Of a stretch of DNA of 64,000 nt, positions 877 to 33,264 are shown one piece after another; positions within the stretch are counted from its first letter, which is position 1, and every line of letters starts with the position of its first letter. A model generated the notes under the pieces. The model saw nothing but the letters and a program-made list of their open reading frames with translations. It made no database searches and was not told the DNA's origin. The DNA comes from Crambe crambe (lineage: Eukaryota; Porifera; Demospongiae; Poecilosclerida; Crambeidae). The DNA is taken from NCBI GenBank assembly GCA_963924555.1, contig OZ004588.1, positions 6,421,205-6,485,204 on the forward strand, in the 5' to 3' direction. The position numbers were made by a program, and so were the translations under genes.

Positions 877-907
877 CATCATGCAAGAACTTCCTTCCTG
901 CATGATG
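877..907. promoter_or_regulatory. Imperfect inverted repeat upstream of TATA box
   Basis: CATCATGCAAGAA (877-889) and TTCCTGCATGATG (895-907) are inverted copies matching at 12 of 13 positions around a 5-bp spacer. They sit about 20 bp upstream of the TATA box. The position suits a dimeric transcription-factor site, but the factor is unknown and function is inferred only from position and symmetry. Confidence 0.35.
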
Positions 908-1050: not shown

Positions 1051-1485
1051 ATGAAGACTATTCTTGGTATCATCGTGCTCATCGGAGCTTTTATGGCAAT
1101 CAGTGCCAAGAAGTACTCTGATACATCAGTGGATCTTGCCGACTTTCTGAAGCAATATAGCTCCTCTGATGAAGTCGAAGCAACAATGGAAGACGACGAT
1201 GGCGATGATGACATCTTTGTGAAGACAATGGTGAATAAAGTGATGTCAAGCATAGCTGAAGCCAATGGTGATGATGATGATGGCGACATGTTTGCTTTGA
1301 TGATGAGTGATGCTGATGATGATGCAGTGGCCAAAGATCAGTTTTTCCGGAGATTGAGGAGGGTATTTAGAAGAGTTCGCAGAGGAGTGCGAAGGGTTGT
1401 GAGGAAGGTAAGAAGAGGACTCAGGTCCCCTATTGGAAGGTGTTTGGTCAGTCGAATTCCTTCCCTTCTTGGGAAAAAGAAATGA
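1051..1485 (+). CDS. Secreted cationic peptide precursor, antimicrobial-peptide-like
   Basis: A single-exon protein of 144 residues. Residues 1-19 look like a signal peptide (MKTILGIIVLIGAFMAISA). Residues 20-95 form an acidic propiece with Asp-rich runs (DDDGDDD, DDDDGD, DADDDA). From about residue 97 the character reverses: the last 47 or so residues hold about 20 Arg/Lys, with paired arginines spaced three to four apart between hydrophobic residues (RRLRRVFRRVRRGVRRVVRK), then one Cys, a short hydrophobic stretch and a KKK end. Acidic propiece plus amphipathic basic helix is the classic layout of alpha-helical antimicrobial precursors, where the propiece neutralises the active part until cleavage. 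The single Cys would allow a disulfide dimer. I recognise no named family. The start is the first ATG after the TATA box and gives the signal peptide directly. Alternatively it is a DNA- or polyanion-binding secreted peptide. Function is inferred from composition. Confidence 0.7.
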   Translation: MKTILGIIVLIGAFMAISAKKYSDTSVDLADFLKQYSSSDEVEATMEDDDGDDDIFVKTMVNKVMSSIAEANGDDDDGDMFALMMSDADDDAVAKDQFFRRLRRVFRRVRRGVRRVVRKVRRGLRSPIGRCLVSRIPSLLGKKK

Positions 1486-2344: not shown

Positions 2345-5300
2345 TTAGCTTGTCATGTGACCTTGAGCTGCATGGAAAATTAATAATAATTATCGTACAG
2401 ATAAAGAGCCATGCACACTGAGTCTTTATTTCTCTCACCTGTGGGATGATCTCTGGCAATCTCCTCAAACAGTCCTGGATCCATTCTCTGCACACTCTTA
2501 GCTATAATCCTCCAGCTTGGCCTTCCATACTTTTGATAATCATAATTCAACTTCAGCCACTGCTCCAACATTTTAATGAGGCAAACATGAACGTTCCCTT
2601 GGTAGTTCTTTAGGATGGCCTCGACAGTGTGTTGCTGAATGCGTAATTTAGTGGCAAGTACTTCCCAACTGGCAGACAAAGTTTCTACTGCATCAAACAC
2701 GTCACCCAAATCATTAGTCCCTGAATTGAACAACAATCTCAGCAGGTGATCAAAACACATTCTAACACCCTCACCTAATGTTGTGTCATCAATAGTTGAA
2801 GATGGCACAGCTGTAGGGTTAGCTTTAGCAAATTCCTATAATGAAAACGTCAACAAAAAAAAGAGATCCAGTTCAAATCCTATGATCACACACTCCGGGC
2901 TTCACTAGACAAATAGTCTCACGAGTCATGAGCCAGACCCTTCACAGAGGGGGGGAAGGGTCTGGCTCATGAGACTAAGGCCAATAGACTATACTTGAAT
3001 GGGTTCAGTCTTATAAATAGAGGCCACAGAGTTCAATGCCCTGCTGTAACAAGCCCGTAAAGTGTCTCTTTGAAGCATAATTACTAGGAGGGCACTAGTC
3101 TTAGGTGCACAACCTTGTTCGGCTCCCAATTTGGTAAGGATCATTAATATGTTAACTAGCATTTCACGTGCAATCTATATTAGGCAAGTAGCCTTGGAGG
3201 TGGAGCCAGCAAGAAAAACATACATTCAAGCCACCAAGAGAGTGGCTGCATTCTTTATGCGATCAACATTATGGCTTCAAGAAAACATTTTAAGTTAGCA
3301 AGTTTTCAAAATTTCTGCACACACTATATATTATTATATATATCTTTTATCATGAATCCCAACCGATTGCTTAACCACTTGCTGCACATGCGCAGCAGGC
3401 AATTGAGATTTACTCACATTTTTTGCTTCAGAAACTGACGGGGAGGTCCCTGACTGATCATCCATAGATTGAGATGGAGACTCTGCAGTGTTAGTTGACA
3501 TGAATCATGAAGGGGTGACAGCATGCATCATGGATGGTGTGTCTTACTGGGAGTGGGAGTGGGAAGTTCAAAGGAGAATTCCCCAATGTCCAATCCACTA
3601 ACTTGCAGTTCTGGTGGATTGGAAGCAGTGCTGATTACTGCTTTGATGTGAGCTATGAACTTTGGGGGGTAGTCAAGAAGGTCTGAAACTCTAATTTTCA
3701 ATACTTCAGGAAGATGGATATCTCTCTTTCGGATCTGCAGACTAAGTGTCATTTTTATGATGGATGATTACATATCTCTTACCTTTGTAGGTTTTTTATC
3801 GAATCTGACACTCCATTCATTTGTACCAGTGGCACTGATAACCACTTCTTCTGACACCATCTGAGCTATGATTTCACTTCGTCCTTCCCATTTTCCCAGC
3901 ATACTTGTGTGTCCCTCCATGATTCTTCTATCACAATGCTATATATATAAATATATTAGCTATCAGGAAAGTTATTTTTAATAATAAACATACTTGAATG
4001 TACATAGGATGATATAAGCACATGCAGAACACAGCAGATGCTTCATGGGCATGGGAAGGATTCAAGTCACGATATAATCTTGCAGAATAATATGTTTCAT
4101 CTCCTGCACATGAAAGAGGGTTAAATTTATTTTTAGATTTTTTGAAATTTTTATGCAAACACCTTTGGAGAGTTTTGGTGAGCTTTCTGAGTCGTCCACT
4201 TCTTCTTTTTCATCTTCTTCTCTTTTCCTCTTACCAATTTTTAACAAGCAAAAGTGTCTCAGTGATATTTCTCCCACCTGGTCTCCAGGTTTGAATATTC
4301 CCTTGGCCCCCTGAATCCTTCTGAAGACATAGACAGGTGGACCAGACTCCCCATATACAGGGGTGGAGCTAGCTGAGAGGAACACCATGTCCTCACAATC
4401 CTCTTCCCTCTTCAAGCAAGCATAGTGATGAATCTTGACTGTGACATCCTTTAAAAATATCACTCTCCTGCTGTGCGTGATCAAATAAGTGGGACTTGCT
4501 GACTTGTAGCCGTCTGGTAATTCGAATGGTCCACTGAAGCAAGGATGAACAGACAGGTCTAAAAATTCTTCTTCAATGCTTAGCGAGTTTTCAGGAATGA
4601 ATATAGATATTCCCACATTCTCTAGCCTATGTATTGAAGTTTCTGTTGATGTAATGTGTTCATTGATAGGCACTTGGAAAAAGTAAATTCCTGGGTAGTT
4701 GGAATCGATCTCTGGAATAGAAATCAAGTTTCTAAATTAAAATAAAGTGAATGATGTTTAGATTACTTACTGATGTCACTATTTTCTTCATCCAATAAAG
4801 TCTTTAACTGTATGATAAATGGAAAAACAGATGAAAAATCAAATTCGCTACTTATTTACAAGACGAGTAAAGTTAATCCATGCAGAGTTCTACGGTGAAA
4901 TAGAAAACATACCAAGTTTTGTAATGAAAAAGTGAGGACTTCATGAGAACAGACATCAAATATGGTATCTCCTTCATAATTAGTCAAGTGTACATTAGCT
5001 CCATATGCTACAAGAAGACTACAAATTTCCAGATCTCCAGCTTGTGCTGCATACATCAGAGAAAACCAGCCATTGTTGTCTTGCATGTCAATTTGAGCAC
5101 CTTTTTCCAGAAGTAAGGAAACAGTATCTGGTCTTCCATTGGAGCTAGCATACATTAAGGCAGTTTTCCCTCTGTTATCACGCTGGTCAACTTTGATGAT
5201 GTCATAATTGGTTGCTAACTCTAACAGTGGAGTTCCTTCACTGTTACATTCAATATGAGCTCCATATTGTAGGAGAAGTCTAGCTGGTTCAGAATGTCGA

Positions 5301-6856
5301 CCTTCAACAGCTGCTGCTAATGCAGATACTCCGACATTGACTTGTGCACCATTCTCTAGTAGCAGTTTGACCACTTCAGTGTGACCATTTTGACTTGCTA
5401 AATATAGAGAAGATAATCTAGTATTGTCCTGCATATTGACTTGAGCACCTTTCTCTAGTAGCAGTTTGACCACTTCAATGTGACCATTCTGACTTGCTGC
5501 GTGTAGAGCAGATGATCCATTATTGTTCCCCATATCGACTTGAGCACCTTTCTCTAGTAGCAGTTCGACCACTTCAGTGTGACCATTGTGACTTGCTATC
5601 ATTAAAGCTGACCATCCATTATTTTCCTGCATATCGACTTGAACACCTTTCTCTAGTAGCAATTTGACCACTTCAGTGTGACCATTCTGACTTGCTTTCA
5701 TTAAAGCAGAAAATCCATTATTGTTCCCCATATCGACTTTAGCACCTTTTTCTAGTAGCAGTTTGACCATTTCAGTGTGACCATTGTGACTTGCTTTCAT
5801 TAAAGCAGACCATCCATTATTGTTCCTTGTATTGACTTGAGCACCTTTCTCTAGTAGCAGTTCGACAACTTCAGTGTGACCATTGTGACTTGCTATATAT
5901 AGAGAAGATAATCCTGTATTGTCCCGCATATTGACTTTAGCACCTTTCTCTAATAGCAGTTTGACCACTTCAGTGTGACCATTCTGACTTGCCATCATTA
6001 AAGCTGACCATTCATCATTTTCCTGCATATCGACCTCTGCACCTTTCTCCAGTAGCAGTTCCACCACTTCAGTGTGACCATTCTGACTTGCTATCATTAA
6101 AGCTGACCATCCATCATTGTTCCTCATATTGACTTGAGCACCTTTCTCTAGTAGCAGTTTGACCACTTCAGTGTGACTTGCTATCATTAAAGCTGACCAT
6201 CCATCATTTTCCCTCATATTGACTTGAGCACCTTTCTCTAGTAGCAGTTTGACCACTTCAATGTGACCTTTCCAACTTGCTATCATTAAAGCAGACCATC
6301 CAGAATTATCTATCAAGTCAATTTGGGCCCCTTTATTTAACAGACTCTGCATCACTTCAGTGTGACCACAACTGCTTGCTATCATTAATGCAGATAGTCC
6401 AATATTATCTTGCTCATCAATTATACTATCACCTTTCTCTAATAGCATTTGAACCTTTTCTTCTTGTCCATCAAAGCTTGCCTTAAGAAATTCAGACCAT
6501 TGTTCATTCCTTTCCACAGAGAAGAGATCCTTTTCATTGTCAGCTCCAGCATTATTCATTTCATCCATCTCATTTATGGCATTCAATTTCTCAGCATTAC
6601 TGTTAGAATAGTCATGCATATGACTACTCTCATCAGGAATCATTGGTGCAAATTGGTCAGCATCATCATCCCTGTCCTGCTCCTGTTTTATGTTCTTATA
6701 ACTTCTGTCTGGGTCCACTCCAAGAGCAGTACTAACTTTTTTCAATCCCTTTACTACCGTCTGGCGTGTGCGCCGAATGAAAGAACGACTTTTGTCATAA
6801 TACCTTTTACGAGTATTCCTTTTGTATACGACTCCTTCAATGTGTTCCTCATTCAT
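2345..6856 (-). CDS. Ankyrin-ZU5-UPA-Death domain protein, copy A
   Basis: Ten exons: 6856-4913, 4807-4771, 4711-4163, 4103-3994, 3938-3783, 3734-3548, 3482-3418, 2835-2775, 2720-2439, 2367-2345. They give 1,137 residues with every phase consistent. Order: basic N-terminus (1-60); about 16 ankyrin repeats (118-648); ZU5 (about 668-820); basic KRKREE and acidic linker; UPA (about 845-990); linker; Death domain (about 1040-1125); terminal exon of seven codons ending in HMTS. This is the ankyrin/UNC5/PIDD-type order but with one ZU5. The ZU5 ends in H813-F814-C815, where autoproteolytic relatives have His-Phe-Ser. One ankyrin repeat lacks three residues (IASHTEVV). Death-domain proteins of this type act as signalling adaptors; partner and pathway are unknown. 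It is the tandem paralogue of copy B. The tiny last exon is inferred from conservation in both copies. Confidence 0.82.
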
Positions 6857-10874: not shown

Positions 10875-13800
10875 TTAGCTTGTCATGTGACTTTGAGCTG
10901 CATGAAAAGCTAATAATAGCTAACAACACCACAGTCATATTACTCTTACCTGTGGGATGATCTCTGGCAATCTCTTCAAACAGTCCTGGATTCATTCTCT
11001 GCACATTCTTAGCTACAATCCTCCAGCTTGGCCTTCCATATTGGTGATAGTCATAATTCAATTCCAACCAATGCCCCAACATTTCTATGAGGCAAACATC
11101 AACGTCTCCTGGGTTATTTTTCTGGATGGCCTCAATTGTGTGTTTCTGAATGTGTAGTTGAATGGCAAGCACTTTCCACTTGGCAGACAAAAATTGCAAT
11201 GTATTAAACACGTCACCCAAATCACTAGTCCCTGAATTGAACAATCACACAGTTCAGCAGATGATCATGACAGCACTAAACACATTTTAACACCCTCACC
11301 TAATGTTGTGTCATCAATAGTTGATAAAGTAGCAGCTGTAGGGTTAACTTGAGCAAATTCCTATGATAAAAAGGGTTATAGGTTCAGCTCTTGTGCATGT
11401 GCTATATCCAATGGCCCTTGAATGGGTTCCTCACATTCTTTGGTTCGGCAGCTGAAAGGGAGGTCCCTGACTGATCATCAACAGATTGAGATGGAGACTC
11501 TGTAGTGTTAGTTGACATGAACCATGAAGGGGTGATAGCATGCATCATGTCATGGATGGTGTGTCTTACTGGGAGTGGGAGTGGGAAGTTCAAAGGAGAA
11601 TTCCCCAATATCCAATCCGATGACTTGCAGTTCTGGCGGATTAGAAGCAGAGCCTGTTGCTGCTTTGATGTGAGCTATGAGCTTTGGTGGGTAGTCAAGA
11701 AGGTCTGAAACCCTCATCTTTAATATTTCAGGGAGATGAATATCTCTCTTTCGGATCTGCAGAATAGCTATATTAAAACAGAGTCAGAAGATTAGATTTA
11801 CACATTTCTTACCTTTGTAGGTTTTTTATCAAATCTGATACTCCATTCATCTTCACCAGTGGCCCTCATTACCACTTCTTCTGAAACCATCTGGGCTGTC
11901 ATTTCACTTCGTCCTCCCCATTCATCTAGAATGCTTGCATGTCCCTTCATGATTCTTGTATCACAAAGCTGAACAATATAGACGAGTTACGTAGATTATC
12001 AGGAAGTCATTGCTAGTATTAACATACTTGAATGTACATAGGATGATATAAGCACATGCAGAACACAGCAGATGCCTCATGGGAAGGATTCAAGTCACGA
12101 TATAACCTTGCAGAATAATATGTCTCATCTCCTGCCCATAAAAGATGTTTAAGTTTCTATATTTTTAGAAGTTTGTATGCAAGCACCTTTGGGGAGTTTT
12201 AGTGAGCTTTCTGAGTCATCCACTTCTTTATTTTCATCTTCTTCTCTTTTCCTCTTACCAATTTTTAACAAGCAAAAGTGTCTCAGTGATATTTTTCCCA
12301 CCTGGTTTCCAGGTTTGAATATTCCCTTGGCCCCCTGGATCATTCTGAAGACGTAGATAGGTGGACCAGACTCCCTGTACACAGGGGTGGAGCTAGCTGA
12401 GAGGAACACCATGTCCTCACAATCCTCTTCACTCTTCAAGCAAGCATAGTGATGCATTCTGACTGTGGCATCCTTTGAAAATGTCACTCTCCTGCTGTGT
12501 GTGATCAAGTAAGTGGGACTTGCTGACTTGTAGCCATCTGGTAACTCAAATGGTCCACTGAAGCAAGGATGAATGGACAGGTCTAGAAATTCTTCTTCAA
12601 TGCTTAGCGAGTTTTCAGGAATGAATACAGAGATTCCCACATCCTCTAGCCTACGTATTGAAGTTTCTGTTGATGTAATGTGTTCATTGATAGGCATTTG
12701 GAAAAAGTAAATTCCTGGGTAGTTGGAGTCGATACCTGGAATTGAAATGAAGTTTCTAAATTAAAATAAAGTGAATGACATGTAGATTGCTCACAGATAT
12801 CACAATTTTCTTCATCCAATAAAGTCTTTAACTGTATGATAAACAGAAAACAGATGCAAGACGAGTAAAGTTAATCCATGCAGACTTCTATAGTGAAATA
12901 GAAAACATACCAAGTTTTGTAATGAAAAAGTGAGGATTTCATGAGAACAGACATCGAATATGGTATCTCTTTCATAATTAGTCAAGTGTATATTAGCTCC
13001 ATATGCTATGAGAAGACTACAAATTTCCAGATGTCCAGCTCGTGCTGCATACATTAGAGAAAACCAGCCATTGTTATCTTGCATGTCAATTTGAGCACCT
13101 TTTTCCAGAAGTAGGGAAACGGTATCTGGATTTCCATTGGAGCTAGCATACATTAGGGCAGTTTTCCCTCTGTTATCATGCTGGTCAACTTTGATGATAT
13201 CATAATTGGTTGCTAACTCTAACAGTGGAGTTCCTTGACTGTTACATTCAACATGAGCTCCATATTGTAGGAGTAGTCTAGCTGGTTCAGAATGTTGACC
13301 TTCAACAGCTGCTGCTAATGCAGATACTCCGACATTGACTTGTGCACCATTCTCTAGTAGCAGTTTGACCACTTCACTGTGACCATTCTTACTTGCTACA
13401 TACAGAGAAGATATCGATCCAGTATTGTCCTGCATATTGACTTGAGCACCTTTCTCTAAAAGCAGCTTGACCACTTCAGTGTGACCATTCTGACTTGCTA
13501 TCATTAAAGCTGACCATCCAGTATTTTCCCGCATATCGACGTAAGCACAATACTCTAGTAGCAGTTTGACCACTTCAGTGTGACCTTTCTGACTTGCTGC
13601 ATGTAGAGCAGATGATCCATTATTATTCGCCATATCAACATAAGCGCAATTCTCTAGTAGCAGTTTGACAACTTCAGTGTTATCATTCTTACTTGCTATC
13701 ATTAAAGCTGACCATCCATCATTTTCACGCATATCGACTTGAGCACCTTTCTCTAGTAGCAGTTTGACCACTTCAGTGTGATCATTCTTACTTGCTATCA

Positions 13801-15751
13801 TTAAAGCTGACCATCCATCATTTTCGCGCATATCGACTTGAGCACCTTTCTCTAGTAGCAGTTTGACCAATTTAGTGTGACCATTGTGACTTGCTATCAT
13901 TAAAGCTGACAATCCATAATCCCGCATATCAATTTGAGCACCTTTCTCTAGTAGCAGTTTGACCACTTCAGTGTGACCATTCTGACTTGCTATCATTAAA
14001 GCTGACCATCCATCATTGTTCCCCATATCGACTTGAACATCTTTTTCTAGTAGCAGTTTGACCACTTCAGTGTGAACATTCTGACTTGCTATCATTAAAG
14101 CTGACCATCCATCATTTCCCCGTATATCGACTTGAGCACCTTTCTCTAGTAGCAGTTTGACCACTTCAGTGTGACCATTCTGACTTGCTATCATTAAAGC
14201 TGACCATCCATCATTGTTCCCTATATCGACTTGAACACCTTTTTCTAGTAGCAGTTTGACCACTTCAGTGTGAACATTCTGACTTGCTATCATTAAAGCT
14301 GACCATCCATCATTTTCACACATATCAACTTTAGCACCTTTCTCTAGTTGCAGTTTGACCACTTCAGTGTGACCATTGTAACTTGCTATCATTAAAGCTG
14401 ACCATCCATCATTGTTCCTCATATCGACTTTAGCACCTTTCTCTAGTAGCAGTTTGACCACTTCAGTGTGACCATTGTAACTTGCTATCATTAAAGCTGA
14501 CCATCCATTAATATTTTCCTGCATATTAACTTGAGCATCTTTCTCTAGTAGCAGTTTGACCACTTCAGTGTGACCATTCTGACTTGCTATCATTAAAGCT
14601 GACGATCCATCATTTCCCTGCATATCGACTTTAGCACCTTTCTCTAGTAGCAGTTTGACCACTTCAGTGTGACCATTCTGACTTGCTATCATTAAAGCTG
14701 ACGATCCATCATTTCCCTGCATATCGACTTTAGCACCTTTCTCTAGTAGCAGTTTGACCACTTTAGTGTGACCAGTCTGACTTGCTTTCGTTAAAGCTGA
14801 CCATCCATCATTGTTCCTCATATTGACTTGAGCACCTTTCTCTAGTAGCAGTTTGACCACTTCAGTATGACCATTCTGACTTGCTATCATTAAAGCTGAC
14901 AATCCATCATTGTTCCCCATATCGACTTGAGCACCTTTCTCTAGTAATAGTTCGACCACTTCAGTGTGACCATTTTGACTTGCTATCATTAAAGCAGACC
15001 ATCCATCATTGTTCCTCATATCGACTTTAGCACCTTTCTCTAGTAGCAGCTTGACCACTTCAGTGTGACCATTGTAACTTGCTACATATAGAGAAGATAA
15101 TCCATTATTGTTCCCCATATTGACTTGAGCACCTTTCTCTAGTAGCAGTTTGACCACTTCAGTGTGACCATTCTGACTTGCCATCATTAAGGCAGACTGT
15201 CCATAATTATCTATCAAGTCAAATTTGGCCCCTTTATTTAGCAGACTCTTGATCACTTCAGTGTGCCCACAACTGCTTGCTATCATTAATGCAGATAGTC
15301 CTATATTATCTTGCTCATCAATTATACTATCACCTCTATCTAATAGCATTTCAACCTTTTCTTCTTGTCCATCAAAGCTTGCATTAAGAAATTCAGACCA
15401 TTGTTCATTCCTTTCCTGAGAGAATAGATCCTTTACATTGTCAGCTCCAGCATTATTCGTTCCATGCATCTCATTTATGGCATTCAATTTCTCAGCATTG
15501 CTGTTAGAATAGTTGCTACTCTCATCAGAAATCATTGGTGCAAAGTGGTCAGTATAACCATCATCCCTGTCCTGCTCCTGTTTTACGTTCTTATAACTTT
15601 TGTCTGGATCCATTCCAAGAGCAGTACTAACTTTTTTCAATCCCTTTACTACCGTCTGGTGTGTGCGCCAAATGAAAAAACGACTTTTGTCATAATACTT
15701 TTTAGGAGTATTCCTTTTGTATACGACTCCTTCAACGTGTTCCTCATTCAT
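10875..15751 (-). CDS. Ankyrin-ZU5-UPA-Death domain protein, copy B
   Basis: Ten exons match copy A one for one: 15751-12911, 12831-12795, 12735-12187, 12131-12028, 11968-11813, 11756-11570, 11499-11435, 11360-11300, 11231-10950, 10897-10875. They give 1,434 residues. Exons 2, 3, 5, 6, 7, 8, 9 and 10 have exactly the lengths of copy A; exon 4 is 6 bp shorter. Exon 1 is 897 bp longer because the ankyrin array has about 25 repeats, some nearly identical at DNA level (two successive repeats at about 14,590-14,790 encode the same GNDGSS... unit). ZU5 spans about 967-1120 and ends in H1112-F1113-C1114; UPA about 1145-1290; Death domain about 1337-1422. The C-terminal half is close to copy A, so the duplication is fairly recent. 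Role as in copy A: probable adaptor, ligand unknown. Long near-identical arrays are also prone to assembly error. Confidence 0.82.
12911..15403 (-). repeat. Expanded 99-bp ankyrin-repeat array in copy B
   Basis: About 25 tandem 99-bp units, each coding one 33-residue ankyrin repeat of the form NDGWSALMIASQNGHTEVVK plus a LLLEKGAQV helix. Some repeats alternate in a two-unit pattern (QNVH then QNGH, about 14,000-14,300), suggesting duplication in blocks of two. Non-multiple indels are absent, so the frame is under selection. Confidence 0.8.
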
Positions 15752-21697: not shown

Positions 21698-24600
21698 TTA
21701 CGTGTGCTTTGTTCTCATATGAAGTGTAGCTTGTCCTGGAAACTCTCTTGCCTTCCCTTTCAAGTTCATTCTTCCAGGTGAGGTGGCCTTTGAACGTTTC
21801 TGTTGCTTGCGGAGTTGCTGTAAACTGCTGAAAGTCATCATCTTCTCTGGCTCGAGGTTTGTGAGAGACTTTGAGGTTTGCTCCCCTCGTTTTCCCATGT
21901 GCATGAAAGTATCGTGATATCCTTGTCTCGAGGCAGCTGAACTAAACATCGGCATTTTGCTACCATCCAGTGAAGAACTAAGTTCCAAAGAATCTGATAT
22001 TGGTCTACCCTCTGTGATACCCGACACAACCGATGAGATTTCAAACTCCGTGTCAACATCCTCCGTGTCTTCATTCTCTTCCGTAATTACTTGCAATTCT
22101 TCGACTCTTACCGTAGGCTTGAATTTATTCGGTCGAAAATCATCTTCAATTGACTCACCTGTTATTTTCACCTTAAATGGACTTCCAGGTATGTGCTTTT
22201 CGGACCACATGATGGAGACTAAATAGTCACCTGGTTTTTTCGGATAATATCTTGCGATCAACGTCCTAGGATCGCTGTGGTCTTTGGACTTCAAATCGAT
22301 CTTGAATGCATCTTTGACCCCATGCAGACACACCCTTAGCATGCCAGGGCCAGCATCTTTTGTCTCAATAGTGAAAGAAGTCGGTACTCCAACCAGACCA
22401 TTTTCAAGACCAGGACCGAAAGCTTTGCATTTGCTGGGATCAACGCCTGGATATATCTTCAGTACGAAAGGACTATTGGGAATATGTTGACCAGACCACT
22501 TCACATTGACGCGATACTTCCCATGCCTAACAGGGTCTAGCTTGATATCATGCCTTCCTTTGGTGCTGTCTTTAGCCGTAAAGACGCGAGCTTGAATACC
22601 ACCAGGACCTATGGCCTTAATGGTCAATTTCCCAGTGCCTGCATTTTTTGTATCGACTGAGAAATCAATAGGCTTGCCAATGGTGAGAACTGCTTCTGCC
22701 TCCAAAGCAGATCCATACATTTTGCATCTGTCTGGTTCGGGACCGGGCTGGGCGTTGAGTTTGAATGGACTTCCAGCTATATCCTCTCCTACCACTCTCA
22801 CTGTGATGAGGTAAGAGCCGGGAGTGGTGACGATATATGCCACATTGTATGATCCATTTTTGTTATCTCTTATCCTCACACGGGCTTCGATTCCATTCAC
22901 AACTCCCGTGACCTTCACCTGCAGCAATCCATCATCCACCAAACCTGCTTTTTTGGTCAAAATGACAAACTGAGCTGGAATATTGGTGAAGGATTCCTGT
23001 AGCCCACTTCCAGTTGCACTGCATGTGTTAGAGTCGAAAGCCATTACTGCCAGTAGCAAGGGACTGCATGGCAGACTAAAGCCACCATAAGTTATTGATA
23101 CTTCATGCGTGCCTATTTCATATGGAGTGAAATCAGCTGTTAGAGAACGTTTATCTTCACTTATTCGGAGCTTTGTGGAATATTTAGCACTGGGGCCAGT
23201 TGCTTTAATGATAGGAATCAGATTTTCCTCCATCTTCTCAGCAGATGTAATCATGAAGCGAACTGGTTTTCCAATCACACCCATCTTCTTCTCTACTAAA
23301 TCTCCACTGACTCCAAACTTGGAAACGTCACAAACTTGAATCCTGAAGGGGCTACTTGCTATCCACTGGTTGTGATATTTGATTCCGACCAAGTACTCTC
23401 CCACTCTCAGAGGACAAATTTCGAGTTTTTTGAAATACTCGTTTTCCTGGTGTGTGAAGACCGTATTGAAGCACGACACTGTGTCTTTGTCGACACAATC
23501 AAAAGCAATATTACCAATTCCAGCTTCTTTGGTATCAAGTTCAAAGACATGGGGTTTGTTGAGCTCCAGAAAGGAAGGAACTGCTCCATGGAGTTTACAG
23601 CTGAGGGGATCAGTAACTTCAACCGTGAAGGGTGAGCCTTGGATTAGCTTATCAACGCAAACCACTTCCACTTTGTAAACTCCAGGAAGTGTGGGTTTGA
23701 AAGAGGCATAGCCTCTGTTCCCTTTGATGGACTTGAATTTGATGGGTATTTGTATCTCTGGAGTCAAAATCGCTGTCATCTGGAGCACATTTAGGGGAAG
23801 ATTTTTGGAAGAATCAATGCTGAATTCTGCTTCCTCAAAGGTCTGGTAGATACGGTTATTGGGAAGACTACCTATCATGTAACCACCACTGTCCACCACT
23901 GTGTAAGGAATGGCCAAATGGGTAAGCTCCTTGTCATTTAGAAAGATATGCAATACAGGTTTTCCAGCTCTGGGTGGAGTATATTTTAACTCAACGATTG
24001 AGTCATCAAGAATGCTGATGTTGGCTTCGATTTTCTCCTTGTTATCGTACAATAAGTGAGCAGCCAAATTGCGTCTCCCTGATTGTTTTGTATTCAGCTT
24101 CAGCTCTATCATCTCTTCGACTTGTCGCAGCTTGCAGTGATGCTCGAAATCAACTATATGAATGAGGCTAGAATCTGTAGCCTGAACAGAGAACGGGCTA
24201 TTTGGTACAGGGATATCAGACCAGCGAATATCGAAAGTGATTTTACTTGGGACTAAAGGAGTGTACATGAACGTTAGAACTCCACTTTGTTTCTCTTCAA
24301 GTGTGAACTTCACCCTCTTTCCATCTTCATAAAATGCATCGATGAAAAGCTTCCCTGGACCGGCTTGGGTGGTGTCAATGAGAAAATTGGTTTCTTTGTT
24401 TATTTGGGCCCTCTGGAGACCGGGACCACTGACCACGACAGCATCGGGAAGAGATTTGAGCTCACTATTTCGAATCCTACTCACCAGCGTCATGATTTGC
24501 AATTCTTCCACTTTTCCACTGCTCAAATCTGCAGCGTTGATATGTGGGGAGATGCCAAGCTTCTTTGAGCAGACATTGTGTATTTCTGTAGCATTCTCCA

Positions 24601-26684
24601 TGGGATTGTCTCTCGACATTTTCATCCAGTGCGACAGCGTCCCAGGAAAGCACGAATTAAGAAGAGCAGCAAAGTTTTTCCCATCGAACCAATCAGTGGT
24701 GAAATTAGTAATACCTTGGTGAGGAAGAGCTCTGCGAACCCACTTTAGAAGCTTTACTCTTGCAGGTTCGACAAAATACGAGAGGTAGGTCATCATGCTG
24801 AGTTCATCAATGCTGCCACTGGCGAGGTCACTGGAGGATATGATTTTTGGGATTTTTAAGTGGGCATCGGCCACCTTGATGGCAAGGGTGCAGTTGTTCT
24901 GGTGTTTGGTAGGGTCCAATGTGGCCACGTTGGGAGCAATCCCTGGCTTTACGGCATTAATGACTGCCACTAAAGCTCTGCAATTCAAATGTGTATAGTA
25001 AATTACTATGCAGCAGTAAGTGATCACTCGTTCAAGCAGTTTGGCCAGAGACAAAAAATTAAATTTAGCAGCCAGGGGTTGAATCCAGGATTTTGCTTGA
25101 GGGGTAGTGAAAAAATTTGAGGAGGGGGAACTACAAACCTATGTGAAATTCTATGATAATCTCAGGGGGGCAAGCCATCGTTTAGGGGGCCCCTTGAATT
25201 AACCCTGGTTTGAAGTAATACTTGGGAAAATTTTCTTGAAGTGTGAATCCCTAATCAAAACCAGTAGCATTGTGACTTTTCCCATAGAGGTTAGTCATTC
25301 AATATAAGCCCTCAACTGTCCACAAAAACACTGGTCACATACCTGTGGCTATTTAGCAGCTAAATTACTAATATTATATACCTTCCATCACTCCAGTCAC
25401 TGGTGAAATTGGAGATATTCCAGGAAGGAAGGAGGGCCTGCAGCCACTGGAGCATCACATCTTTGGTTGACACTTTATAACCTTTTGGCAAAAAAAAATT
25501 ATTGTTAATCTTCAAATTCAATTAAGCACAGAATTTTTGTATTTCATAGGCCTATTTAGCTATGTAGCTGTAGCTGCATTTTGTATGCATGCTAGCTTGA
25601 TCTCCATTCTCACCTTTCATCCGTAGCTGATACTTTTGGATCAGAGTCCATATCATGCCAAGTGTTAACTTGATGTTTCCTTCAAACACGTTCAAACTTC
25701 CTATAAATTGAATATAAATTTTGTGGTCATCTATATATGCATGCAGCTCCAAATGCTAAAACATATGCTTATAACCCTGCTGTTATGATGATTTTTGAGC
25801 TGTAATTTTTTAGCTACATACCTATTCCAATAAGCTTGACATCTTCCTGCTTCATGAATTCAAACACCAGGTCCAAATTCACCAGCTTATGTGCAGGCAT
25901 TTTGGGGTTCTTGGTGTAACCTTTTATCTTCTTCTTTGTAAGATTTTCCAGGAGCTTGATGAGGAGAATTCCATCAGAGAGATCAGTAGAGAGATCTTGG
26001 ATTTTGGGAGTGCCATGTCGGCCAGCTTTGAGGCGGGCATTCAACCAGTTGGTAAAGGTAGATTTCTACACATTAATAAATTATCAAAGGAGTTCGCCAT
26101 TATGGACGTCATAAACTCAAGAACAAATGAAAAATGAAACAAAATTTAAAAAACAAACAAATGAATAATAAACAAACGATTTTAAAAGCAGGCCAGCCTT
26201 GCACATGCAGAATATGGGAGGATCTGCCTGTGAGGAGGCTCGTTCTTTTAAGTATATACTGGCTAACTAGTAGTTATGCCAAGATCAAAAGCAGTAGCTA
26301 AATACTGGCCAACTAGCTGACCTGCTAGCTGTCTGACCTGCTGGCTGCCCTGACCTGCATTTCCATCCATGCTTGGTCCATATCTGTGTCCCTACTCTCC
26401 AAAATATCCGTAAAACTAGAGGTCTTCCCATCCTCCAACTCTGTCAGGCTGGAAGTGCGACCCTCTGGGCTCTTGGGGACCTTGCTGGGGCGCAGGACGT
26501 GATTGAGCAGGGGGGAAAGAGGACGCTCAGGGTTTTTTGTTGGACCGTAAGTTTCCAGCAAGAGTGGCGTACTTTTTGTCGCTCCTAGACCGTCAGTCTC
26601 ATCTTCGTCGACGTCTAGGCGGAGGCCAGAGTAAGAATCTAGTTTAGAAGCGCTCTTGACTTCGGAAAGGTACACGGTAGACAT
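21698..26684 (-). CDS. Jitterbug-type filamin with three CH domains, copy 1
   Basis: Five exons: 26684-26355, 26065-25822, 25700-25614, 25481-25382, 24977-21698, giving 1,346 residues with phases 0, 1, 1, 2. Residues 1-110 are a Ser/Thr/Pro-rich head. CH1 about 111-215 (TFTNWLNARL... LEN-T-KK), CH2 about 226-322, a divergent CH3 about 325-425, then eight filamin Ig repeats about 432-1215 (most ending in a SPF-type motif such as IPGSPFKVKITG) and a basic tail. Filamins cross-link actin through the CH tandem and act as scaffolds. Three CH domains instead of two mark the jitterbug (Jbug) type. The start is the ATG at 26,684, just before MSTVYLSEV. Same strand and exon plan as copy 2 directly upstream. 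No break seen. Confidence 0.85.
25070..25215. mobile_element. Inverted-repeat element in filamin copy 1 intron
   Basis: Starts ccaggggttgaatccaggat and ends gaattaaccctggttt, roughly inverse. The same family lies at 50,551-50,722 (gcagggtttaattcag to aaataaaccctgtttg). Both share ctacaaacc and a G-rich right half. Nonautonomous; no coding. Confidence 0.5.
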
Positions 26685-27644: not shown

Positions 27645-30600
27645 TCATTTAGATACAAACTTGGATTTATTCAGGTTCTGCATACGAATAGTCACTTGTC
27701 CATCAAATTCTTTCTTCTTATCCTTTCTTCTCTCCTCTAGGGAAACTCTACGTCGTCTGTTCTGTTTGTTGTACTGTTGGAGGTTGTGGAAAGTTGTCAT
27801 GTCTTGACTCTTTTTGTGGCTTGCACGATCTTTGAATCCATGGTTGAATGTATCTTTTATGTGCGTGGCCGGTTTGCTTTTTCCTGCAAGGAGTGCAGGT
27901 GCAGATTTGTATGGTGCCAGTTGTCTGTCATCTCCAGCATCGTCCCCAAAATCTCTATCACCAGCTTCGTCAATCAGAGTAGCCGTTTCTGGCAGTCGAG
28001 GTGTAGGTGTAAATACCACCGGCCTCTTCTCGACACCATCTCCAACTATTTTAACCCTGAATGGACTGCCAGGGATATGAACATCAGACCACTTTATCGT
28101 GATCAGGTACTCGCCCGGTTGAGTGGGGTCATATTTCGCCAGTAGAGTCCTTCGATCCTTCTGGTCCTTCGGCTGTATCTCAATCTTGAATGCACCTTTT
28201 AGTCCATGCAGCCTCACCTTCAGAATTCCAGCCCCAGCATTCTTCGTTTCGATTATAAAGGAACTTGCTTTGCTTACAAGTCCATCTTCCAAGCCTGAAC
28301 CATAAGCATTGCATTTTCTAGCGTCTGCTCCTGGAAAGACTTTCAGAATGAAAGGACTGCACGGAATATGCTGGCCAGACCACTTCACACTTACTCTGTG
28401 CTTACCATGACGAAGTGCATCTATGTTGATGTCATATCGTCCTGGATGATCAGTTTTAGCAATAAAAATACGTGCTTTCGTTCCTCCTGGACCAATGGCA
28501 TTCACTAATAGCTTTCCTGTGCCAGCATCTTCAGTATCAACAGTGAATTCAATTGGTTTTCCAAATGTGAAAATTGATTCTTCATTCAAGGCAGGTCCAT
28601 ACATTTTACACTTATGAGCCTCTGGGCCTGGAAGGGCATTCATCTTGAAGGGACTGCCAGGAATGTGTTCCCCAGCAGCTTGGACAGAAATGAGATAGGC
28701 TCCTGTTTTCTGGATGAGATAAGCAATGCTGTACGTTCCATCTTTGTTATCTCTTGCTCGTATGCGACCTTCACTCTTGTTAATAACACTGGCCACTTTG
28801 ATCTGCAGTGTGCCATCTTCTATGAGTCCATGTTGTCTGCTCAAGACAACAAACTGAGCAGGCTTGTTCGTGTAGGCCTTCTGAAGACCCGCCCCAGCAG
28901 CACTACATGCATCGTAATCAAACAGCACCACAGGGAGGACGATAGGACTCGAAGGGATGTCGAACTCACCGTACCTTATATTGATTTTGTGATCTCCGAT
29001 TTCCCAAGGTACGAAGCTGATGGAGTGGCTAAGACCATCTTCACTTACTTTGGTCTGAGGAGAATATTTGGCACTTGGACCATCAGCTTTTACGACTAGC
29101 TTGAGGTTATCATTATTGGCCTGCTTTTTGGTGTGAACTTTGAACTCAATTGGCTTTCCAACGTTGCCGACTTTTGGTTTTTCCACAATGTTGAATTTTG
29201 AGGGATCGCAAATTTGTAGTCGGAATGGACAACCAGATATCCACCTCTTTTGGTACTGGATGCCCACAATATAATCTCCTTCAACAATTGGAGTTACTTG
29301 AAGCTTTTGCAAGTCACTGGAGTCACGTAGTTGGAGTTTAGTCTTGAAAAGAGAAGAGATATCGTGGTCTGAGCTCTCGAATGTAATCGATCCGATACCT
29401 GCTTCTTTTGTGTCAACTTGGAATACGTGGGGCTTACCCAGTTCAAGGAACAAAGGGATCTCTCCTTCAATCTTGCAGCCATGTGGATCAGTGACTTTCA
29501 CTGAAAAGGGAGTACCTCGGATTAGCTGGTCAACGCACACGACTTCAACACTATAGCTACCAGCCAAGGAAGGGATGAAGCTAGCAAAGCCTCGGTTGCC
29601 ATCAATTTGTGTAAACTTTAGGGGAATTTGAACATCCTCATTCAAAATGGCAGTCATCTGCAGCACATCCAGAGGCAATCCTTTAGCAGAGAGGACACAG
29701 AATCGTATGTCATCAAAGCTGCAATACAATTTGTCTTTGGGGTAGGCTTCAATGGAATAACCTCCACTATCAACAACCGTGTAAGTAACTGAGAGATGAA
29801 TCAGTTCTTCTTTATTCCAGAATATGTGCAGAACTGCTGTACCAGATTTAGATGGGGTATACTCAAGCTGGACTCTATTAGCGGACAAAGTGGTTGATTT
29901 TGCCGGAATTTTTTCTTTTCCCTGCTGTAAGAAAGCTGTCAATCTATTGAATCCCGCTTGCTTTGTCTCGAGTGTCAGGCTAACGGGCTTTCCGATCTCC
30001 ACAAGCCTGTTGTGAGATTCAAAGTTGACAATATTCACAAGCGCTGAGTCTATAACAGGGACGCTGAAAGGACATCCAGGGACTGGTATATCTGACCAAG
30101 TAACATCAAAGATTATATTCCCTGGAGTCAGGGGTGTGTACAATAAGCGAACCACCCTCTTCCTTTCCTCCTTGAGGCTGAATTTGAGCTTCTTTCCATC
30201 CTCTTCAAAGTAAGCGTCGATGTACAACTGGCCAGGACCTGCCTCGGTTGTGTTGATGGTGAAGTGTGTCTCCTTTTGGAGCTGGGCTTCTTCTGATCCA
30301 GGACCACTGATGATTACTTCATTTGGGAGGGACACCATCTCGCCTCCTCTCACAAGCATAATCATCGTCATTACTTGCAACTCTTCGACTTTTCCATCAG
30401 CAAGATCTTCTGAATCAAAGGGTGCCATGATCCCAAATTTCTTCTGGGTAATCTTGAAGAGCTGGTCGATAAATTCCTTTGAGGTATCCATTTCAAGAGT
30501 TGCCCATTCGGTGAAAGAACCCGGAAAACAGGCATTCAATAAAGCACCAAATGCCCGACCATCGTACCAGTCGGTTGAAAATCCAGTGATATTAAAAAGA

Positions 30601-33264
30601 GGGATGACCTTTCTGATCCATTTTAGGAGCTTTATTCGAAATGGGTCCACAAAATACGAGAGGTAAGTCATCATACTCAGTTCGTCAGCATTCCCACTGG
30701 AGAGATCGTCGGGGGATATGATTTTGGGGATTTTGAGGTACGAGTTTGCGACCTTGATGGCAAGAGTGCAGTTGTAACGATGCTTAGTGGGATTGAGTGT
30801 GGCCACGTTGGGAGCTATGCCTGGTTTCACCTTATTAATGGCTGCGATCAAAGCCCTATAAAGGTTTGAAAATAGAACGAAAGTGCATTATTTATAGTGG
30901 AGGACATTCTGGAAAGAGGACATAGCTAGCTACTTTTCAACAAAGAATAATCTAAAAGTGTCTTGTGTGTCCATTATGATATATAGGACATTCTATAGCT
31001 ACTCCTCCATCATAGCTTACCTTCCATCCTTCCAGTCTGAAGTGAGGTTTGTAATGTTCCATCGAGGCAAAAGAGCCTGCAGCCAGTTGACCATCACATT
31101 CTTGGTGGATACCTTATAACCTGGAACAGGAAAAAGGCAAGATCTAGTGACAGCTAAGCATCAGGTATCATTTCCAAGCCTAAAATTAATAGGCCTGGAA
31201 ATGAGGCAAAATAAGTGTAGGCAGTGTTTTGGAATTTGTGGGAGAGATGAATGAGAATATAGACTTTTTAACCTTCTAACTATTATTGGGCAATACAATA
31301 TTTAATGATCCACAGGCACAAGTGACATGACTTATATACCCTTGACCTTTTGAATTCATATGCCATACAATGTTATACGATGCATTCTAGGTACATACAT
31401 TCATAGGAACAAATACCATGCGATAATGTATGTATAATTGGAAGTGAAAAATTCATAGACATTATTACTGGCTACGCTCTAGCAGTATTCATAGTGGATC
31501 AAGAAACATCTATGAATAGCCAAACTGCCACACCCTTCCCTAAAATGTTACACACTTAGAAGGGAACAGCAAGTACAGAATGTTAGATAAACAGTGCAGG
31601 GTGGGACGGGGGAGAGGAGGAAGGGGAGATTGGGGGATGGACAGAGTAGCATGATCCCTAGCTCACCTTGCATCCTGATCTGATACTTCTGGATGAGCAT
31701 CCATATCATCCCAAGGGTCAGGGTCATGTTGCCTTGATAGATGTTTATCCCACCTTTATAGTGGAAGGAAATGGGAAAATAATAAACTTTAGAAAGCTGG
31801 TCTATAGATATTTACATGCAGGTGAATGTACTTTCATAATAAACTGAATCAGAAGTGGAACTTCCTACAAAAGACCCTCTGATGCAATAGGAACAACCTC
31901 TCTAATAAAGGACAACCTTCAAGGTCCAAAATTGCAAATACTAGCTGATATGGATTCGTTTTTAGCCACTTTACTTTACTTCTATTCAGCTATATAAGAT
32001 TATCCAGAACACGAGACAACAACTTCATCAAAAGCAATTCTTGAGAAATGGCTATTTAATTAAGGTTTCTACTTGGGATATAGCTACATGCATTCAGGTG
32101 CATGCATAGGACTTTCAGATTAGTAAACTTCAAGGAGTATAATATATAAATCTAGCTACTGTTGTATAAATATTGTGTAATTTTTTCTAATACAAAATCA
32201 TAACATGTTTACTCTCTTACCTACTCCAATCATTTTGATGTCTTCAGATTGCATAAACTGAAAAGCCAAGTCGAGGTTCACCAGCTTGTGTGCCTCAGTT
32301 TTTGGCGTCTTTCCGGTGAACCCTTTCACTTTTTTCTTGGTGAGATTCTCCAGGAGCTTGATCAGCAAAATCCCGTCCTTCAGGTCATTGGAGAGGTCAT
32401 CCACTTTTCTGTCGTGTTTTCCTGGCTTGAGCCGATCGTTGACCCAATTCGTGAATGTAGTTATCTGAAAAATATCAGAGGCCACAGTACAATACCTTCA
32501 CAAGCTATCAATTCTCAAAAGATGTACAAACTGATCGAAAGCATACATTCCCTATCTTATAGCTAATTATAATGTTAATTAATATACGTGTATAATGTAT
32601 ATACCTGAACTTCCATCCATTGTCTTTTTTTCTGTCCGCTCGATCTAGTCAAATCTACTGCACTTCTTTCTGCTGGTATCTGATCATCGCCTCCACTACC
32701 TGCTAAATCCAGAATATCAGTTATAGATTCGGTGGGCAGTATGTTGTATGTACCAAGCAAACTTGAGTTACTGTCTCTAGCTGCAAGCAAGTTAATGGTG
32801 GAGTTAGAGAGATCGATGTCAGACCTGCTGGACAAGTTCTCAGTAGACAGGTCGAGACTGATAGTGCTGAAAGCAAGTAAGTTGGAGCTGGAGGCTGCTT
32901 GTAGCTGTCCAACTTGAAAATTCCACAGAGGAGAATCCTTTCCAGCATTGACATTCTCGGTTTTTTGAGGATAAATCAACGGCGATTCGGCTGCTTCTTC
33001 TTCCACTATTTCCTCTACTTGGATCGCAGGGAGTTGGCTGAAATCGGCTCTCTGATTTGCAAGCGTGAGGGGGCTGGGAGCTACGCCCTTTGCAGCTTTG
33101 CTGGTGGCCAGGGGCGATTCTGGTAGGCTAGGGTTTCCCGCACTCCCTGTGCGATACATGACTGAACTAGAAGATGTAGCGGACTCAGATGCGTTGGAAA
33201 ACCCCTTTGTAGGGACTATAGCTGCTAGTCTGGTGTTGGCAGAAGTAGAACGTAACTTGCTCAT
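27645..33264 (-). CDS. Jitterbug-type filamin with three CH domains, copy 2
   Basis: Five exons: 33264-32605, 32464-32221, 31753-31667, 31120-31021, 30855-27645, giving 1,433 residues. Internal exons 2-4 are 244, 87 and 100 nt, exactly as in copy 1, with the same phases. The Ser/Pro-rich head is twice as long (220 residues). CH1 about 221-325, CH2 about 336-432, CH3 about 434-535, eight filamin repeats about 545-1315, basic tail to 1433. An in-frame ATG five codons upstream (33,279) is an alternative start; 33,264 was chosen because MSKLRS resembles the copy 1 start MSTVYL. Its start is only about 150 bp past the MyD88-like stop. Expected role: actin cross-linking or scaffold. It is less than 1 kb from copy 1, so this is a tandem duplication. 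Confidence 0.85.

Follow-up and report, generated by a model that had tools for sequence, protein, structure and literature searches.

A sponge gene family of charge-balanced precursors with predicted amidated, cationic helical peptides and an arminin-like layout

What does a short open reading frame near the start of a 64,000-nucleotide stretch of the genome of the sponge Crambe crambe encode? The stretch, here called the window, covers positions 6,421,205 to 6,485,204 of contig OZ004588.1 (GenBank assembly GCA_963924555.1, forward strand), and a sequence-only reading had proposed that the frame encodes the precursor of a new kind of antimicrobial peptide. We examined this gene, searched the 143-Mb genome for its relatives and compared them. 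The reading that we favour, at a probability of about 0.62, is that the window gene encodes a preproprotein in a lineage-specific family of arminin-like defence peptides that are amidated and act on membranes. The features of sequence on which it builds are a signal motif, an acidic propiece, an amphipathic tail, a terminal Gly-Lys, matched charges and an amidating enzyme, all of which were observed.

The frame and its residue counts bear out the predicted architecture of signal peptide, acidic propiece, about 20 basic residues in the C-terminal half and one Cys (Table 1). Residues 21-96 include 24 Asp or Glu against 5 Lys or Arg, and residues 97-144 include 20 Lys or Arg for a net charge of +20; the signal peptide was called by a motif rule rather than by SignalP. 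A helical-moment check, run on the amphipathic helix that had been proposed, gave 1.14 for the best 18-residue stretch of the tail compared with 0.60 +/- 0.13 in shuffled sequences, a value that none of 500 shuffles reached. AlphaFold, used without an alignment, modelled residues 92-124 as one helix, which was the best-scored part of a model of low confidence (mean predicted local distance difference test score, pLDDT, 51.5). A signal motif with a separate propiece, followed by a cationic amphipathic helix, is the arrangement of the linear cationic alpha-helical class of antimicrobial peptides. The ratio of non-synonymous to synonymous substitution rates (dN/dS) between the window gene and its 60% identical paralogue at locus L010 was 0.11-0.17 in signal, propiece and tail, a rough estimate because dS of ~1.5 is near saturation. 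Taken together with paralogues at E values down to 1e-33, it confirms at the sequence level that the frame is beyond chance. The gene is probably single-exon, since the frame is unbroken across the family.

The window lies within a 7.66-Mb contig (C11), and a first protein search of the genome with the window protein returned 24 matches. The loci were read, and with three further searches using divergent members and one added locus the set came to at least 26 open-frame genes, 25 of which are held in our alignment A1. Fifteen of them are clustered at C11:5.62-5.69 Mb, 0.73-0.80 Mb from the window gene on the same contig, where two extra matches with stops were also found (C11:5.677-5.678 Mb, beyond the 26). 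Apart from the window gene, the remaining members lie at C11:5.19 (one), C11:5.445-5.448 (two), C13:2.46 (three), C17:5.16 (two) and C17:6.64-6.68 Mb (two). Family tails range in length from 17 to 118 residues and in charge from +4 to +52, most are 32-45% hydrophobic, Arg outnumbers Lys in 20 of the 26, and exactly one Cys is present in 17. Two precursors consist of two propiece-tail units each, and the gene at L009:5646 resembles a shortened version of such a precursor; two giants of 291-292 residues have tails of 95 and 118 residues with charges of +47 and +52. The data support a clustered multigene family whose tails change fast among close copies, as is often the case for antimicrobial peptide genes. 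A divergent member at L014:5661-6257 (minus strand) has an Arg/His/Ser/Gly tail with three Cys and neither a terminal Gly nor an upstream TATAAA; it is possibly a decaying or re-purposed copy.

With Pfam at E up to 1, no family among the best 25 of 41 matched more than 3 of 25 members, and the Pfam matches listed, both for the window protein and for these members (25 of 41), included no histone, protamine or antimicrobial family. Three PDB searches with family proteins returned no significant match (best E 1.4 in one, no match in another and 0.11 in the third). Matches to ProSAAS (E 0.05, window protein) and Dynamin_M (E 1e-4, one member) were judged compositional because each occurred in 1 of 25 members. 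Pattern matching picked out 349 stretches in bacterial/archaeal contigs and 66 in viral ones, none of which was confirmed as a homologue; this search reaches close relatives only. No prior description of the family was found among the titles and abstract openings listed from the open-licence PMC literature.

Propiece and tail charges are closely matched. With the boundary set at the alignment column of Q97, the propiece averages -17.6 and the tail +17.5, and the two are correlated across the family (Pearson r = -0.86, n = 26), also when the two-unit-type and giant members are left out (r = -0.81, n = 21). An earlier boundary, picked for maximal charge difference in 25 genes, gave an equal correlation; because it was biased, the alignment boundary was used in its place. 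Phylogenetic independent contrasts gave r = -0.75 (25 contrasts, sign-flip p = 0.0036); the tree was built from signal and propiece columns, and the contrasts are partly non-independent because it uses the acidic part itself. Amphipathicity is likewise widespread: of the 25 tails tested, 21 have a helical-moment z score exceeding 1.64, and the 26th tail is too short. The proposal of a secreted, charge-balanced precursor of a cationic, amphipathic helical peptide is supported.

Among close copies, the tail differs from the rest of the precursor in its rate of change. We computed dN/dS for 14 pairs and pooled eight that are close and separate, which gave 0.81 for the signal (18 substitutions), 0.33 for the propiece and 1.09 for the tail; in all eight the tail exceeded the propiece. 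A 5.7-kb segmental duplication between C11 and C17 (L015 and L020) carries two family genes and is 93% identical. Within it, 22 of 291 tail sites are different, compared with 125 of 4314 sites in the remainder of the segment, which leaves out the genes and the 150 bases directly upstream of them (p = 1.7e-4, which is optimistic because mismatches outside the genes are clustered). A codon count of the same tails, made from a different alignment, found 23 non-synonymous changes (219 sites) and 1 synonymous change (66 sites; p = 0.012). These comparisons of sequence establish relaxed constraint or diversification of the tail. Gene conversion was rejected as an explanation for the rapid tail change: no donor was found among the 26, because the first 90 tail bases of the four duplicated genes best match their own duplicate.

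The end of the precursor points to amidation. Twenty-two of the 26 end in G[KR]0-3, a classical signal for amidation, as G (2), GK (4), GKK (15) or GKKK (1). By comparison, the window has 94 open reading frames of at least 60 residues, counting the window gene; G[KR]0-3 terminates 5 of these and G[KR]1-3 terminates 1. In this terminal block the residues are constant, and synonymous codons and stop codons vary. The genome has an amidating-enzyme locus, L027 (C19:252.9 kb), with PHM N and PHM C domains and with PAL-type repeats that match the structure 3fvz at 2e-28. Its PHM C domain has HAH aligned to the HTH of solved PHM, the HxH pair that we take to bind copper. Further Cu2_monoox_C matches were seen on C14 and C20. 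The family thus combines a terminal Gly-basic signal with a PHM/PAL enzyme in the same genome, as is characteristic of amidated precursors. The genome also has 7 matches to convertase P domains and 19 to M14 carboxypeptidases, some of the latter with stops; gene numbers are below these counts because the matches are exons. At the A-[K/R]-x-Q junction between propiece and tail, A is present in 24, K/R in 19 and Q in 22 of the 26. PAM is reported in Porifera (PMC9525235), and in the sponge Amphimedon six convertases are reported along with a single maturation-type carboxypeptidase (PMC6850559).

Upstream of the window gene, the TATA box and the inverted repeat on which the sequence-only reading had based an inducible effector are both real. 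Of the 26 genes, 23 have TATAAA in the 200 bases upstream, compared with 7.7% of random window stretches, a sharing to be read with the fact that related copies inherit promoters by descent; the window gene is one of the three exceptions and has TATATAA instead. A second, weaker inverted repeat (932-952 / 991-1011, 76%) overlaps the TATA region. However, the inference of inducibility found no support in these regions. Exact 8-base cores of both arms of the inverted repeat were present within 400 bases upstream of 1 of 26 genes, the window gene itself, with a single arm in one further gene, and kappaB-like sites were present in 1 of 26 against a background of 8.6%, which is no enrichment.

If the favoured interpretation is correct, the precursor would lose its signal peptide in the secretory pathway and the acidic propiece would neutralise the tail, sparing the membranes of the cell itself. 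A protease would then cut at the conserved junction, a carboxypeptidase would remove the terminal lysines, and PAM would convert the exposed Gly to a C-terminal amide. The released peptide would run from about residue 96 or 97 to 140 and be amidated, possibly as a dimer linked through Cys131; it would form a helix on bacterial membranes and permeabilise them. Gene duplication and fast change of the tail would in turn have produced a diverse set of peptides.

Several observations weigh against this interpretation of the window gene as an arminin-like defence precursor. Clear amphipathicity was missing in 4 of the 25 tails tested, and the terminal Gly in 4 of the 26 members. The junction is monobasic or non-basic, with A[KR] in 18 of 26. 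Four of the eight pooled pairs had a tail dN/dS under 1, and positive selection is for that reason not proved; between the window gene and L010, propiece and tail are equal (dN 0.26, dN/dS 0.17, at saturated dS). Along the duplicated segment, mismatches are unevenly spread even beyond the genes. In addition, no induction motif was apparent in the 26 upstream regions examined, and mass spectrometry of the sponge Ephydatia fluviatilis is reported to have given no amidated peptide (PMC9525235).

The same precursors could also serve in attack on animal cells, as cytolytic, venom-like peptides that act on predators, competitors or epibionts by the same membrane mechanism. Linear cytolysins of venoms, too, are made with an acidic propiece and a cationic helical peptide, and diversifying tails would fit an arms race. 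The excess of Arg over Lys in 20 of the 26 tails and the hydrophobicity of 32-45% in most of them argue against this, because such a composition is commoner in peptides selective for bacteria than in haemolytic ones. Sequence gives no clean separation of the two roles, and we regard a cytolytic one as unlikely. Silica is a further possible target in a sponge: polycationic tails freed from acidic precursors, as in silaffins, may precipitate spicule silica. One of 14 cathepsin-type peptidase loci (L044) has an exon reading GDCGSSYAF, with Ser where the other pattern matches have the catalytic Cys, which we take to be the signature of silicatein. This exon is in agreement with the sponge-type setting supposed earlier, and it favours a silica function, as do the polycationic tails of the two giants. 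Diatom Silaffin-1 likewise has a signal, an acidic part and a basic part, but it is rich in Ser and carries modifications on its Ser and Lys residues, and 18% Ser over 100 residues is quoted as a criterion for silaffin-like proteins. Family tails contain 0-14% Ser, and a silaffin identity was rejected on this composition. Strong helical amphipathicity, an amidation signal and tails that evolve rapidly between close paralogues would not be predicted for such peptides either, and we consider this explanation distinctly unlikely.

Amidation is also compatible with signalling, in which neuropeptide-like products would act on receptors. Receptor ligands usually retain a constant C-terminal motif, whereas here the residues preceding the Gly vary, as do the length and charge of the tail. 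The terminal GKK, the PAM gene and reported phoenixin precursors with an amidation site in two sponges (PMC9004410) speak for this role, which we nevertheless judge improbable. Nuclear or nucleic-acid-binding, protamine-like proteins would account for the Arg-rich tails; the signal peptide, whose cleavage motif is conserved, speaks against them. Homology to histones or protamines, which the sequence-only reading had set against its own proposal, did not appear among the Pfam matches listed, and there was no significant PDB match; a protamine-like nature is therefore very improbable.

Table 1. Features of the window gene and its upstream region, in window positions.
Feature	Positions	Strand	Remark
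Whole coding sequence	1051..1485	+	144 codons + stop, ATG to TGA, one uninterrupted frame
Signal peptide, residues 1-19	1051..1107	+	Motif rule: (-3,-1) site ISA|KK, predicted cut past ISA
Acidic propiece, residues 20-95	1108..1335	+	Conserved A-[K/R]-x-Q junction at its end
Cationic tail, residues 96-144	1336..1482	+	Inferred mature start at residue 96 or 97
Amphipathic helix, ~residues 97-124	1339..1422	+	Val/Leu/Phe each 3-4 residues amid basic ones; z 4.2
Single Cys, residue 131	1441..1443	+	Near the C-terminus
Terminal Gly-Lys-Lys-Lys	1471..1482	+	Predicted carboxypeptidase-trimming and amidation signal
TATA box TATATAA	929..935	+	122 bases upstream of the ATG
Inverted repeat, 13-nt arms 877-889 / 895-907	877..907	.	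92% complementary, 5-nt spacer

Some other reading frames were noticed on the minus strand of the window. Two long ankyrin-repeat frames, at 4856-6856 and 12812-15751, overlap tandem repeats with a 99-base unit, present in 9.9 and 18.9 copies. A weak Death-domain match (E 5e-4, 20.7 bits, below the curated 22.6) at 2380-2760 separates the peptide gene from the first of these frames. Two frames of ~1000 residues each, at 21698-24796 and 27645-30674, combine calponin-homology and filamin repeats.

More tentatively, and with somewhat less than even confidence, we suggest that the amidating enzyme of this nerveless animal has its main natural substrates in this family, a sponge arsenal of amidated, charge-neutralised and diversifying effectors. 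If so, peptide amidation in early animals would have been a means of controlling microbes no less than of signalling, and the arminin-type precursors of sponges, placozoans and Hydra would represent either one ancient system or repeated convergence. The family supplies concrete candidate substrates for the sponge enzyme, for which phoenixin is the one predicted amidated sponge peptide encountered in the literature consulted (PMC9004410). The matching of propiece and tail charge over very different lengths would offer a clear example of an intramolecular antidote. Hydra is said to maintain its microbiome with its peptide arsenal (PMC10945409), and at least 26 linear helical precursors would equip sponges with a comparable one. 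The sponge antimicrobials otherwise named in the excerpt of PMC12466427 are mainly cyclic peptides and depsipeptides, with barrettides tabulated.

Two tails, those of L022:4033-4398 and L045:2613-2978, resemble cecropins by eye, with a QWKFFK start containing W-K-x-F-K and a terminal amidation signal, both of which are features of cecropins. The Pfam cecropin profile at E up to 10 was unmatched by L022, L045, L019 and the L022 tail alone, and L022 had no PDB match; homology to cecropins was rejected for want of profile or PDB support, leaving convergence at most. Among the few well-characterised sponge antimicrobial peptides is the ASABF-type defensin of Suberites domuncula (PMC12466427). It has 64 residues in a Cys-stabilised alpha-beta fold, whereas members of the present family mostly have one Cys and a predicted linear helix. 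The closest likeness is to systems of Hydra and placozoans. Arminin-like precursors of Trichoplax are 150-250 amino acids long, with a signal peptide, a highly acidic N-region, a basic C-region and an amidation Gly, and Hydra arminins are thought to be amidated (PMC11452194, excerpt); Hydra families of antimicrobial peptides are described as clustered, lineage-restricted paralogues with oppositely charged halves (PMC10945409, excerpt). The view that no known family is so built thus holds for the exact sequence and not for the layout, which is common to Hydra arminins and the Trichoplax precursors. The sponge family, with its signal, acidic N-region, basic C-region and, in most members, terminal Gly, is laid out like the arminins as described, and it differs from them in the single Cys of most tails (17 of 26), the two two-unit precursors and the two giants.
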